A program made the translations under genes and the position numbers. Of a DNA stretch of 64,000 nt, positions 51,658 to 56,281 are shown piece by piece. This DNA is from Firmicutes bacterium HGW-Firmicutes-8 (lineage in GTDB: Bacteria; Bacillota; Thermincolia; Thermincolales; UBA2595): contig PGZN01000003.1 of the NCBI GenBank assembly GCA_002840165.1, positions 17,734-81,733 of the forward strand, in the 5' to 3' direction. The notes under the pieces are model-generated. The model was not told the origin of the DNA. It did not search any database and saw nothing but the letters and a program-made list of their open reading frames with translations. Position 1 is the first letter of the stretch. Each line of letters starts with the position of its first letter.

Positions 51658-51733
51658 AGGGGAGTAGCTCAATTGGTAGAGTAGCGGTCTCCAAAACCGT
51701 TGGTTGCGGGTTCAAGTCCTGTCTCCCCTGCCA
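51658..51733 (+). tRNA. tRNA-Trp (CCA anticodon)
   Basis: The 76 bases fold as a cloverleaf with acceptor AGGGGAG/CTCCCCT, D-arm AGCTCAATTGGTAGAGT, anticodon stem GCGGT/ACCGT with loop CTCCAAA (anticodon CCA), T-arm GCGGGTTCAAGTCCTGT and an encoded CCA end. Its 3' half is the integration site of the island that follows (copy at 56241). Confidence 0.96.
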
Positions 51734-51735
51734 TT
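51695..51735 (+). repeat. attL: 3' end of tRNA-Trp
   Basis: The 41 bases from the anticodon-stem 3' strand through CCATT recur at 56241-56281 with two mismatches. The similarity continues into a following AACTGCAAG/TTGCAGTTTTTT terminator at both places. This is the classic footprint of tyrosine-recombinase insertion into a tRNA 3' end. Confidence 0.88.
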
Positions 51736-51852: not shown

Positions 51853-52012
51853 CGGCCTGGTTTTTTAGCCTAAATATGTTTCTACATTCAAACACATATT
51901 CCCTTTTATTATATGCGGTTTTAGAACTTAATTTCTTCTTAATTTCTTCCCTGGTTTCTGCGGCAGAAATAAAAATGCGGGACGCTCCCGCGAAATAAAA
52001 AAGAAGGAGCTG

Positions 52013-52462
52013 TTAGGCTCCCTGTAAATCCAATAAAAGTTTATAGATTTCTTTAATATGATTATAGTATTTTGATTGCCAATTATCATTGAAATCTGTT
52101 TCGTTACATAATACAATTTCTTTACCATTTTTAAACTTAATCTTTAATTCATTAAATAACAAATGAGTTGATGATTTATAAACTATTTCTTCAAGCATTT
52201 TTATTTTTATAGCTGTAATTTCAAAGCAATTGTCATTGCCGATAAATTTTATACTATATATGATGTTTTTGTTAGTCAAAATAAGTATTTCAAGTTTTTT
52301 ATGGTCTTCGGAAAACAGGTTCTTTGCATAAGCAATTTGAATGTCTTTTTCGTTAATAACTTCTTCTATCTTAGAAAATAATCCTTCAACAACAAACGCA
52401 ATATCAGGCTTTTTTTTCTTAGCAAAATTCCTAATCTCTTGATATGTAATTTTTTGTTCCAT
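52013..52462 (-). CDS. DUF3908-like island protein
   Basis: The 149-residue AT-rich gene starts at ATG with AAGGAGGGGAA upstream. The product begins MEQKITYQEIRNFAKKKKPD and has a central beta-rich part (ILILTNKNIIYSIKFIG, FEITAIKIKMLEEIVY, LKIKFKNGKEIVL) resembling a PH-like fold. It has a general similarity to Bacillus DUF3908 proteins, but this is a guess. Function is unknown. Confidence 0.5.
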   Translation of the reverse strand: MEQKITYQEIRNFAKKKKPDIAFVVEGLFSKIEEVINEKDIQIAYAKNLFSEDHKKLEILILTNKNIIYSIKFIGNDNCFEITAIKIKMLEEIVYKSSTHLLFNELKIKFKNGKEIVLCNETDFNDNWQSKYYNHIKEIYKLLLDLQGA

Positions 52463-53339: not shown

Positions 53340-53423
53340 TCTTACCTCCCCTCTCACTTGTTTTTACTTCTAATTATAATTTACTACTTGTTATTACTTG
53401 TGTCAACAATTATTTTCCACAAA

Positions 53424-53447
53424 AAAAAGAGCCGTTAGGCTCTCTCT
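53424..53447 (-). terminator. terminator with GAGCC/GGCTC stem
   Basis: GAGAGCC-TAAC-GGCTCT followed by T-run on the minus strand, just after the gene at 53435. The same stem and loop recur at 52004-52022 and 54027-54047 after other island genes. Confidence 0.75.
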
Positions 53448-53734: not shown

Positions 53735-53869
53735 TTGAAAACAAAAAAAGAGAGTACCAACATCGGCAAAACATCAGAAATGTTTTTCAAAATATCCGGC
53801 CTATACATCTACTGTGAGGACTGCGGGGCTATCATTACATGGGTTCCAAAGCCTATTTACATGGTTTAG
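53735..53869 (+). CDS. small zinc-knuckle-like protein, divergent
   Basis: A 44-codon frame starts with TTG after GGGAGGTGAAA. It contains YIYCEDCGAIITWVPKP, a Cx2C pair that could be half of a zinc site. It is the only plus-strand gene candidate of the island and diverges from the gene at 53435-53644. Function unknown. Confidence 0.45.
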   Translation: MKTKKESTNIGKTSEMFFKISGLYIYCEDCGAIITWVPKPIYMV

Positions 53870-54026
53870 ACTCAGAATTCACGGAAAAGCCCTTAATTTG
53901 CTCTGTAATGATTTCATGGGTATAACCTCTATACTGACCACCCCGTTTAAAACGAAACTGTGCCAATCTGTGAAGCCGCCAATGCGAATATGCGTTTGGT
54001 TTCTCCTTTACTGTGGCGAACCAAAT

Positions 54027-54047
54027 AAAAAGAGCCGTTAGGCTCTT
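54027..54047 (-). terminator. terminator of the proteasome-like operon
   Basis: AAGAGCC-TAAC-GGCTCTTTTT on the minus strand, 40 bases after the stop of the Ntn-hydrolase gene. Confidence 0.8.
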
Positions 54048-54086
54048 AGATCTACAGCTTTCCATTTTCTTAAATTATAAAATCTT

Positions 54087-54776
54087 TTACAATACATTTT
54101 TAATCAGAGATTGCCTAAAAGAACAAATTTTTGGTTGAATAGCATTAATAATCTTGTCAACTTCCTCATTACCAATTTTTGTGAAGCCTCTGTCATATGT
54201 AATTTCGGCCAATTGTATAGGGCCGCCTACTGTATCCTCGACAGAAGAAGTACTAGTCATTAGAAGAACAGCTAACTCTTTAAGTTTACCAACAGTTATC
54301 TCAGGATAATATAATATGGTCATTAGAAATTTTGATAAAGGCCATTGTGCTCTCATTAGCGACCCATTAGCCTCTTCAAATATCTCGAAATCTGGCGATT
54401 CCCAGTTGACAATTTTAAATTGATTAGCTTCGATACTATCATAACCTGCAAGTATAAAACCTACCAAGGGGGGATCACCTAGCATACCCTGCTTTTTAAT
54501 TTGGGCTACCGTATCTTCATATTCTTTTTTAAAAATTGTTTCTGCAGCAGTTGATATTTGGCTGAAGTGAGCTAGTTGGTTATCTTTTACATGTTCCACA
54601 AGCCTTTTTATACCTATATTGCCCGGGGTTGTCCAACCATAAGTCATAACACCAACATCTCTGTTCACTTGCATAAATTTTTCCGAAGTATCTTGACTAC
54701 TTCCCCATCCACTCTTACGGCTATCACTGGCCAAAACAAGACCATTGGAACCCCTTAATGCGAGGGCTAATGTCAT
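54087..54776 (-). CDS. proteasome/HslV-like Ntn-hydrolase, predicted active subunit
   Basis: The 229-residue protein begins MTLALALRGSNGLVLASDSR, which aligns with 20S beta and HslV subunits (T1, then 'GVVLAADSR'). Removal of the initiator Met would expose Thr1. Asp18 (ASDSR) and Lys33 (SEKFMQV) fall where proteasomes have Asp17 and Lys33, so the catalytic triad is complete. VGGPIQLAEITYDRGF near the end matches the 'GG...v..i...G' element of the fold. It is the last gene of a three-gene operon, 19 bases after a second member of the fold. It is not HslV itself (about 180 residues; no hslU is present) nor Anbu by obvious signature. Substrates and unfoldase are unknown. Confidence 0.75.
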   Translation of the reverse strand: MTLALALRGSNGLVLASDSRKSGWGSSQDTSEKFMQVNRDVGVMTYGWTTPGNIGIKRLVEHVKDNQLAHFSQISTAAETIFKKEYEDTVAQIKKQGMLGDPPLVGFILAGYDSIEANQFKIVNWESPDFEIFEEANGSLMRAQWPLSKFLMTILYYPEITVGKLKELAVLLMTSTSSVEDTVGGPIQLAEITYDRGFTKIGNEEVDKIINAIQPKICSFRQSLIKNVL

Positions 54777-54795
54777 ATATTATCTCCCTCCAAAA

Positions 54796-55419
54796 CTAAC
54801 AAAAAAGAAACGCGTTGTCTTCTTTGATTTTATTGAACGCGTTTGAATTCTTTAACCGTAAGGCCTGAAGATCGTTATCAGATAAGAAAACCGTTTTACC
54901 CGGTGTAATTTGGCAAACACCGTATTGGCATGTCCTAGCCAACCCAGTACTTAGCTCTTGGGTCAAAGTGAATGACAATACCTCCGAGGCTTTGTTTAAA
55001 TCCAATCCCCGATGAAACAAAATCGTCCAAATGTATTTAGGTATCATGGACGCATCAGTAGTTCCAATAGGATCGAACCTTCTAAAAGGAAAATCCGGAC
55101 TACTGGTGCCAAACACTTGAGGGAAACCCTCATTATCGTATCCTAAAATAAAAATTCCTATATACCCATGAATTGCTTCGTCATAGGTTTTAGCTAGTTC
55201 AGCCCTTAGATAATCTGTTATGTCAACAACGTCGTTGGTGGGGTTTTTATGCAATATTCCTTTTACGAGTGATAATCCTTTTTGTAGTTCTCCATGAACT
55301 AAAACTAAAAGACCATCGGTAATTTGGACTATAAACTCATCATTAAGACTCGGTCTCCGTTCATATACACCAACTATTCCATTAACTGTTTTGCCTATTA
55401 TTATCGTAACTTCTTCCAT
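54796..55419 (-). CDS. second proteasome-fold protein, predicted inactive partner
   Basis: The 207-residue protein has the same strand pattern as its neighbour (VTIIIGKTVNGIVGVYE; GLLVLVHGE; GYIGIFILGYDNEG; GLARTCQYGVCQITPGK), so it is probably an Ntn-fold paralogue. It has no Thr at position 2 and no Asp in the GVYERR segment, so it is unlikely to be catalytic. It could play the role of an alpha-type or structural subunit. ATG at 55419 lies inside the end of the upstream 79-codon gene. Confidence 0.6.
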   Translation of the reverse strand: MEEVTIIIGKTVNGIVGVYERRPSLNDEFIVQITDGLLVLVHGELQKGLSLVKGILHKNPTNDVVDITDYLRAELAKTYDEAIHGYIGIFILGYDNEGFPQVFGTSSPDFPFRRFDPIGTTDASMIPKYIWTILFHRGLDLNKASEVLSFTLTQELSTGLARTCQYGVCQITPGKTVFLSDNDLQALRLKNSNAFNKIKEDNAFLFC

Positions 55420-55640
55420 ATTGAATCACCCTTAGCTTGGCAAGAATACCTTGATCTAAAAGACTTATCAGCTTTTTTTTCAAAACTCTTGGGGTCGTTG
55501 GCAGTCTCATTGGCAGTCTCTTTTGAGTCAACAGAAAAGGAATTGTACTTTTTATACCAATCCTTGGCTTTTAATTCTGAGTTGTTATGCACTCCACTAA
55601 CCCCCTTTCTGTTTACCAAGCACTCCTTGGCAAACCACAT
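55401..55640 (-). CDS. small Lys/Ser-rich protein heading the proteasome-like operon
   Basis: The gene has the strongest ribosome-binding site of the island (AAAGGAGG, 8 bases before ATG). The 79-residue product is hydrophilic and looks largely disordered: SELKAKDWYKKYNSFS, ETANETANDPKSFEKKAD, ending DSIWKKLR. Its end overlaps the next gene. Being first in an operon with two proteasome-like proteins it might be a substrate, tag or assembly factor, but that is speculation. No homology is recognised. Confidence 0.55.
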   Translation of the reverse strand: MWFAKECLVNRKGVSGVHNNSELKAKDWYKKYNSFSVDSKETANETANDPKSFEKKADKSFRSRYSCQAKGDSIWKKLR

Positions 55641-55965: not shown

Positions 55966-56240
55966 TACAGGCCCTTATTCAAAAAGTCACTTGGATAAAC
56001 GGAGGCAGACCGACCACAACCACCGGCGCCAGGGTGCTTTTTGAAAATTAACCGTTCTATTTCGACTTTTCCCAAATACCGGAAATTTTTTTTGGGAAAC
56101 TGCTTTGGGGGATTGGAATAATTTGAAATTGAACCGTTACACTGGAGGAAATCATCGGAAGGCTTAATAGGGCGACCTCTCGACCGAAAGGGCGGGAAGA
56201 ACCCCCCGCCGTCCCTCTCATGTTAGGTAACGCATACATA

Positions 56241-56281
56241 AACCGTTGGTTACGGGTTCAAGTCCTTTCTCCCCTGCCATT
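56241..56281 (+). repeat. attR: duplicated tRNA-Trp 3' end
   Basis: 39 of 41 bases match 51695-51735. The following AACTGCAAGAGATTGCAGTTTTTT hairpin matches the terminator just after the tRNA gene. Between here and 56583 no gene is seen; 56503-56528 holds short ACTGTCA repeats. Confidence 0.88.

Follow-up and report, generated by a model that had tools for sequence, protein, structure and literature searches.

What might two adjacent proteasome-like genes be doing on a small island at a bacterial tRNA gene? The genes, here called open reading frame (ORF) A and ORF B, lie in a 64,000-nucleotide stretch of Firmicutes bacterium HGW-Firmicutes-8 (assembly GCA_002840165.1, contig PGZN01000003.1, positions 17,734 to 81,733; hereafter, the window), behind a gene for a protein of 79 residues (Table 1). 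An initial annotation, made from the sequence alone, had described a minimal two-subunit proteasome-like complex on a mobile element, possibly for defense or for control of the element's proteins. Our tentative answer is a dedicated proteasome-like protease built of two subunits, A and B, whose task would be to control a toxin or some other small partner protein that the same operon encodes. Proteasome homologues are well known; what appears to be new is the tie of such a pair to toxin modules.

Three relatives of A, each about 47% identical to it, were readable in their genomic context: locus L003 (Anaerolineae), L004 (Chloroflexi), and L005 (Dehalococcoides sp. JdFR-54). A B-type gene was found directly upstream of A in 3/3 of these relatives and, counting the window, in 4/4 loci. 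Directly downstream of A is a gene for a small acidic protein (119, 119, and 89 residues with isoelectric points (pI) of 4.3, 4.1, and 4.1 in L003, L004, and L005), followed by a toxin-family gene. The latter is PemK/MazF in L003 and L004 (49.5 and 45.7 bits) and PIN in L005 (43.2 bits), all above the cut-off. Consecutive genes overlap by 4 bp or are separated by gaps within 28 bp. Judged by gene order, a toxin-family gene stands behind a small-protein gene in all three loci, as in a type II toxin-antitoxin module. The pairing that was first noted in the window thus recurs, while the toxin-family gene in 3/4 operons suggests that its role is toxin control rather than general turnover.

The main argument for the toxin link is the conserved unit in L003 and L004. 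These loci have exactly one block in common, 2.26 kb long and 75% identical (1314-3570 in L003 and 5346-7602 in L004), which begins 62 bp ahead of B and stops 10-13 bp short of the end of the toxin gene. None of the L003 ORFs outside the shared block matches L004. L003 is flanked by an N6/N4 methylase (best PADLOC match type III) and by a weak match to a restriction family that falls far below the cut-off, and L004 by a corrinoid methyltransferase and a molybdenum-cofactor gene. Since the one shared block lies between unlike flanks, the four genes act as a single unit. By eye, a sigma-70-like promoter with TATACT as its second hexamer stands just before B in each locus. The small protein was found in 2/120 genomes of the class, which are the two with the pair, and in none without it. 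The toxin had matches in 6/120 genomes, at 84-100% only in the two with the pair and at 27-31% in the other four. The L005 locus adjoins a type IIG restriction-methylase, and about 10-13 kb further on its contig are a protein matching candidate defense models and a second proteasome-like gene. This second gene (249 residues; L055:5233-6777) overlaps the gene for a DUF5678 protein, which in turn overlaps one for a retropepsin-like aspartyl protease (24.4 bits, cut-off 24.3), so that two of the three overlapping genes are protease-like.

ORF A carries the residues expected of a catalytic subunit. Its N-terminus is MTLALALRG, with ASDSR and TSEKF later in the sequence, placing Thr2, Asp18, and Lys33 as first noted, and Gly47 can be added to the set. 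The protein scored 31.5 bits with the Pfam Proteasome family (PF00227; cut-off 22.4). Across 61 A-family members, Asp18, Lys33, and Gly47 are invariant and residue 2 is Thr in 55 and Ser in 6, in keeping with the Thr2 conservation proposed as a check. The N-terminal nucleophile (Ntn) fold, also proposed for checking, was recovered by structure prediction: the AlphaFold model of A has a predicted local distance difference test (pLDDT) score of 92.9 and matches 20S subunits. It contains helices H1 (49-66) and H2 (71-95), and no long insertion separates strands 34-36 and 41-47. In a structural comparison, the numbering of the top rows for A suggests beta chains, in our reading, with alpha rows at most 1.6 Z behind; for B, a beta row came within 1 Z of the best rows, in effect a tie. 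These rows do not decide between alpha and beta for either protein. A is predicted to be a catalytic, beta-like subunit whose Thr2 would be exposed after removal of Met1. It is a branch of the proteasome-like family, and B is its diverged sister.

In a joint alignment, B has Glu at the Asp18 column and Phe at the Lys33 column, with Gly kept at column 47. Its Thr aligned to Thr2 sits behind MEEV and would, therefore, not be N-terminal after Met removal. The neighboring paralogue had rightly been described as lacking these catalytic residues. The kinship of A and B by itself is real but weak by sequence and was the weakest point of the earlier description: BLASTP gave 25% identity over 71 residues (E 0.008), and the window B had no Pfam match (best E 0.11, below cut-off). 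Only 2/29 B rows matched Pfam Proteasome at E <=0.1, one of them the L005 B (14.6 bits, below cut-off). The window B scored 5.6 bits with a hidden Markov model of the A family (best of 500 shuffles, 3.3) and 8.9 bits with one of the B family built without it (best of 500 shuffles, 4.2). Aligned as family profiles with the window B among the B rows, B and A gave an hhalign probability of 99.5% (E 9.2e-23), a figure that mainly reflects the other B rows; the window B alone gave 13% against the B profile built without it (E 0.0021) and 55% against the A profile (E 0.00012). A set of 5.8 billion proteins was searched with A, B, and the B alignment as queries. The window B had no homologue in the single-sequence search, and the profile search returned 26 further proteins. 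Identity between the window and the relatives is 16-22% for B and 47% for A. The B model (pLDDT 75) was built from alignment A5, which includes nine A-family rows, as alignment A4 misplaced the middle part of the window B. It has the fold of A and starts with coil (1-5) and a strand (6-10), without an N-terminal gating helix. The models, thus, support an Ntn/proteasome fold strongly for A and moderately for B.

In the mechanism that we propose, B would be an alpha-like silent subunit serving assembly, gating, or recognition. The A-B complex would form, with Met1 removal exposing Thr2 of A, and B would sense a cue, for instance infection or stress. Next, the complex would degrade the small acidic protein, whose gene stands ahead of the toxin gene where an antitoxin gene would be, and the cell would be arrested by the toxin so released. 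In the window, the toxin half would be missing or unrecognized, and the likeliest substrate would be the 79-residue protein. A more specific version is possible but doubtful, namely that this is a new kind of toxin switch, with a catalytic A, a fast-evolving sensor B, a toxin that can be exchanged (MazF-type or PIN), and an acidic partner that is labile and whose destruction on a cue such as phage infection lets the toxin fire. Classical type II modules rely on general host proteases. A recurring active/silent pair with toxin genes offers a concrete, testable job, that of a protease carried with the toxin module it possibly controls, instead of a borrowed Lon or Clp. This matters since most prokaryotic proteasome homologues besides HslV and the 20S proteasome have no known job; if the proposal is true, toxin control is a missing job of many of the uncharacterized ones. 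One-subunit versions beside PemK, ParE-like, and Fic genes would then follow the same principle, the window island would be a mobile form with the A-B pair and its 79-residue partner as cargo, and the pair would join the proteasome as a second, far smaller case of a design that combines catalytic with silent subunits.

A survey of gene neighbors outside the window was conducted with 49 proteasome-like ORFs, most of them distant and single (53 distinct ORFs less three B genes and one half of a split gene). Same-strand neighbors within 900 bp, of 60-520 residues and without unread bases, were counted after removal by hand of 1/129 downstream ORFs (overlapping) and 2/125 upstream ORFs (inside B genes). 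The toxin counts are lower bounds drawn from the 25 of 43 downstream and 25 of 38 upstream families listed. Downstream, PemK (3), Fic (2), PIN (1), and ParE-like (1) genes give toxin families at no fewer than 7/49 loci, or at least 7/101 short ORFs. Upstream, HigB (2) and PIN (1) give at least 3/89, assuming that all three are among the 89 short upstream ORFs. An imperfectly matched distant control set (60-160 residues, both strands, more than 1.2 kb away) had a toxin family in 0/75 ORFs; the difference from the downstream set has a p of 0.019, with loci that are partly non-independent. Proteasome-like genes of this kind, therefore, keep company with toxin genes. Four single distant ones stand directly before a toxin-family gene: ParE-like at L089:802-2190, PemK at L090:2670-4240, and Fic at L092:4030-5501 and L098:2840-4381. 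In L089, L090, and L098, a small ORF lies between the two genes. It is possible that these four loci are one-subunit versions of the same principle.

Several observations weigh against the proposed control of a toxin by the A-B pair. Toxins downstream and upstream of the surveyed genes were not clearly different in number (p 0.22, again with partly non-independent loci). Close A homologues (E <1e-90) were found in only four genomes, those of the window, L003, L004, and L005, in surveys of 199, 7, 400, 396, 393, 195, 148, and 3 genomes, sets that overlap. Of the three relatives with context, two are close (A 77% identical), leaving two independent toxin acquisitions. The window B alone scores barely above shuffles, and the alignment behind its model contained A-family rows. 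Among the 18 ORFs in or beside the island that were scanned with Pfam, none matched a toxin family above the cut-off, and a terminator directly follows A in the window, with no recognized toxin there. Finally, the 79-residue protein is basic, while the small proteins of the relatives are acidic and cannot be aligned with it.

How do other explanations fare with this evidence? A and B could act as a restraint, with the toxin itself as the substrate and the small protein as an adaptor, and so serve as an antitoxin or safety valve instead of a trigger. The gene neighborhood is identical for both, and the persistence of the window pair without a recognized toxin fits a restraint, as a trigger would not need to persist there. 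However, the small acidic proteins occupy the usual antitoxin position, and in type II modules the toxin is usually the stable partner and the antitoxin the labile one. We consider a restraint rather unlikely. Slightly more credible, though still unlikely, is that the pair, carried along as cargo, acts as a general ATP-independent peptidase on proteins that are unfolded or damaged, and that its toxin neighbors are the ordinary company of mobile, defense-rich regions. Distant A-like genes are mostly alone, some of them beside housekeeping genes; PemK, Fic, HigB, and PIN genes are found both upstream and downstream of proteasome-like genes; and the window has no recognized toxin. Such a role was proposed for uncapped homologues in the sections consulted of Fuchs et al. 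2021 (PMC8665760). A general peptidase does not account well for a shared L003-L004 block whose limits are the promoter region on one side and the toxin on the other, or for a small protein that never occurs without the pair in 120 genomes.

Another possible explanation is that A works alone as a homo-oligomer and that the window B is a decaying or unrelated neighbor. It would fit the lack of a single-sequence homologue of the window B, its score of just 8.9 bits with the B profile, and the distant A-like genes, which, with one split gene excepted, lack a neighboring second ORF of the proteasome-like type at E 1e-3. Yet B keeps its position, length, open frame, and predicted fold and precedes A in 4/4 loci, and its family, window B included, is clearly related to A by profile alignment, making this explanation improbable. 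Least probable of all is that the pair joins or trims peptides as connectase does and modifies the small partner. Connectase is a specific ligase of the same fold, according to the portion consulted of Fuchs et al. 2021 (PMC8665760), and A occurs as one copy on the island, where no unfoldase was recognized next to it. In contrast to connectase, the A model has H1 and H2 and lacks the long, two-helix insertion between strands 3 and 4.

The proposed control of a toxin by a proteasome-like pair can also be set against known systems. Like archaeal and actinobacterial 20S proteasomes, the locus encodes a subunit with the beta catalytic set and fold together with a silent paralogue. Unlike them, A is very far in sequence (17.4 bits with the NCBIfam archaeal alpha model, cut-off 219), the B model lacks the alpha-type N-terminal gating helix, and, as the initial annotation had it, no ATPase was recognized among the 18 ORFs. 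A resembles HslV in having Thr directly after Met1, no propeptide, and the same catalytic set, but it had no match to HslV models at E <=1, and HslU was absent from the ORFs scanned. An ordinary hslV-hslU pair is present separately in the host, and its HslV scored 282.6 and 288.7 bits with HslV models. Anbu differs as a single-subunit system, and its usual operon partners were not recognized in the island. With MazEF/PemIK and VapBC-type PIN modules, the L003-L005 operons share the small acidic protein directly before the toxin gene; they differ in also encoding a proteasome-like pair, and the window differs in having no recognized toxin. The suggested defense role gained no support from the PADLOC 2023 defense models, which neither A nor B matched at E <=0.01.

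In the portions consulted, Fuchs, Alva, and Lupas (2021; PMC8665760) describe 22 new proteasome-like families (WPH, PMI, PHI, and others), several of them on mobile DNA (PPH and AAH on phages), and report no suggestive genomic contexts or co-occurring AAA+ partners. A is like these families in being a small prokaryotic PF00227 homologue; unlike here, those portions describe no fixed active/inactive pair. Within the listings and abstract beginnings of the open-access literature, we found no account of the pairing or the toxin link, and a term search of a 2026 proteasome review citing Fuchs (PMC13022661) gave no connectase, Anbu, toxin, or operon. At L087:1750-4650 (G475), the gene for a 727-residue CDC48-type AAA ATPase (CDC48_N and two AAA domains) is followed after 49 bp by a proteasome-like gene that is broken into overlapping ORFs of 94 and 130 residues. 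This places an unfoldase beside a proteasome homologue, a pairing not seen according to the same portions of Fuchs et al. (PMC8665760). At L091:2258-4406, about 190 bp separate a proteasome-like gene from a following AAA ATPase, which matches RecF and defense ATPases (MAD3, PtuA) weakly and below the cut-off.

Relatives of A were absent from phage and plasmid records, and three viral contigs contained distant ones only (22%). No B or L004-toxin relatives were found in viral contigs, and none of the L004 toxin in plasmids. Distant proteasome-like genes lie about 0.6 kb or less from a serine recombinase at L114:946-2238 and from tyrosine recombinases at L006:8001-9976 and L007:3627-6129. The proteasome-like family, thus, seems to be often mobile.

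Table 1. Features of the operon and of the island in the window.
Feature	Position	Strand	Description
ORF A	54087-54776	-	229 residues; PF00227; Thr2, Asp18, Lys33, Gly47; predicted catalytic beta-like subunit
ORF B	54796-55419	-	207 residues; diverged A paralogue; without N-terminal Thr, Asp18, Lys33; predicted non-catalytic partner
79-residue ORF	55401-55640	-	Operon gene 1; basic, hydrophilic (pI 9.7, grand average of hydropathy -1.17); strong ribosome site
Terminator-like hairpin	54030-54047	-	Immediately 3' of A
tRNA-Trp, insertion site	51658-51733	+	Repeat arm 51694-51735
Copy of tRNA-Trp 3' part	56240-56281	+	42 bp, 95%; far island end
Excisionase-like helix-turn-helix protein, 62 residues	53169-53357	-	HTH_17 60.1 bits; TIGR01764 52.8 bits

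In the window, the genes are ordered 5' to 3' as the 79-residue ORF, B, and A, with an overlap of 19 bp between the first two and a gap of 19 bp between B and A, a layout that reads as one operon. The strong ribosome site claimed for the leading gene is present, with AAGGAGG before its ATG; GGAGGGAG precedes A, and a weak AGGGTGA precedes B. The terminator-like hairpin comes right after A, so the transcript likely ends there. A 70-residue ORF behind A (53853-54065) was discarded because it overlaps this hairpin and lacks a ribosome site. Ten further ORFs in or beside the island, including one 5' of the 79-residue gene and one behind A, matched no Pfam family at the cut-off. The 79-residue protein gave no convincing alignment with the small acidic proteins of the A relatives and had no match among viral contigs or phage records. 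The co-occurrence check proposed for it was negative, as no similar protein was found beside the three relatives. Its role may be that of a substrate, of an adaptor, or of a toxin that escaped recognition.

The island of about 4.5 kb at tRNA-Trp, first proposed from the sequence, is supported as an insertion. The copy of the tRNA 3' part lies inside a 77-nt repeat whose two copies start 4546 bp apart. Eight relatives from the family were searched, and the island is absent in the five with the locus found (L109-L113). In these, a PHP gene, tRNA-Trp, and a GNAT gene adjoin one another, with 53, 346, 40, 40, and 75 bp from tRNA-Trp to the GNAT gene compared to 5130 bp in the window. In L102, a relative from the same order, the PHP gene was found and the GNAT gene was not found within the stretch examined. 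The island also encodes a DUF3908 protein (27 bits, cut-off 22.9), and no integrase was recognized among the ORFs scanned. Near-identical hairpin repeats were seen at 51999-52021, 53421-53443, and 54024-54046, behind the minus-strand genes for the DUF3908 protein, a 69-residue protein, and A, respectively. The island may be built of separate small units sharing one type of terminator.
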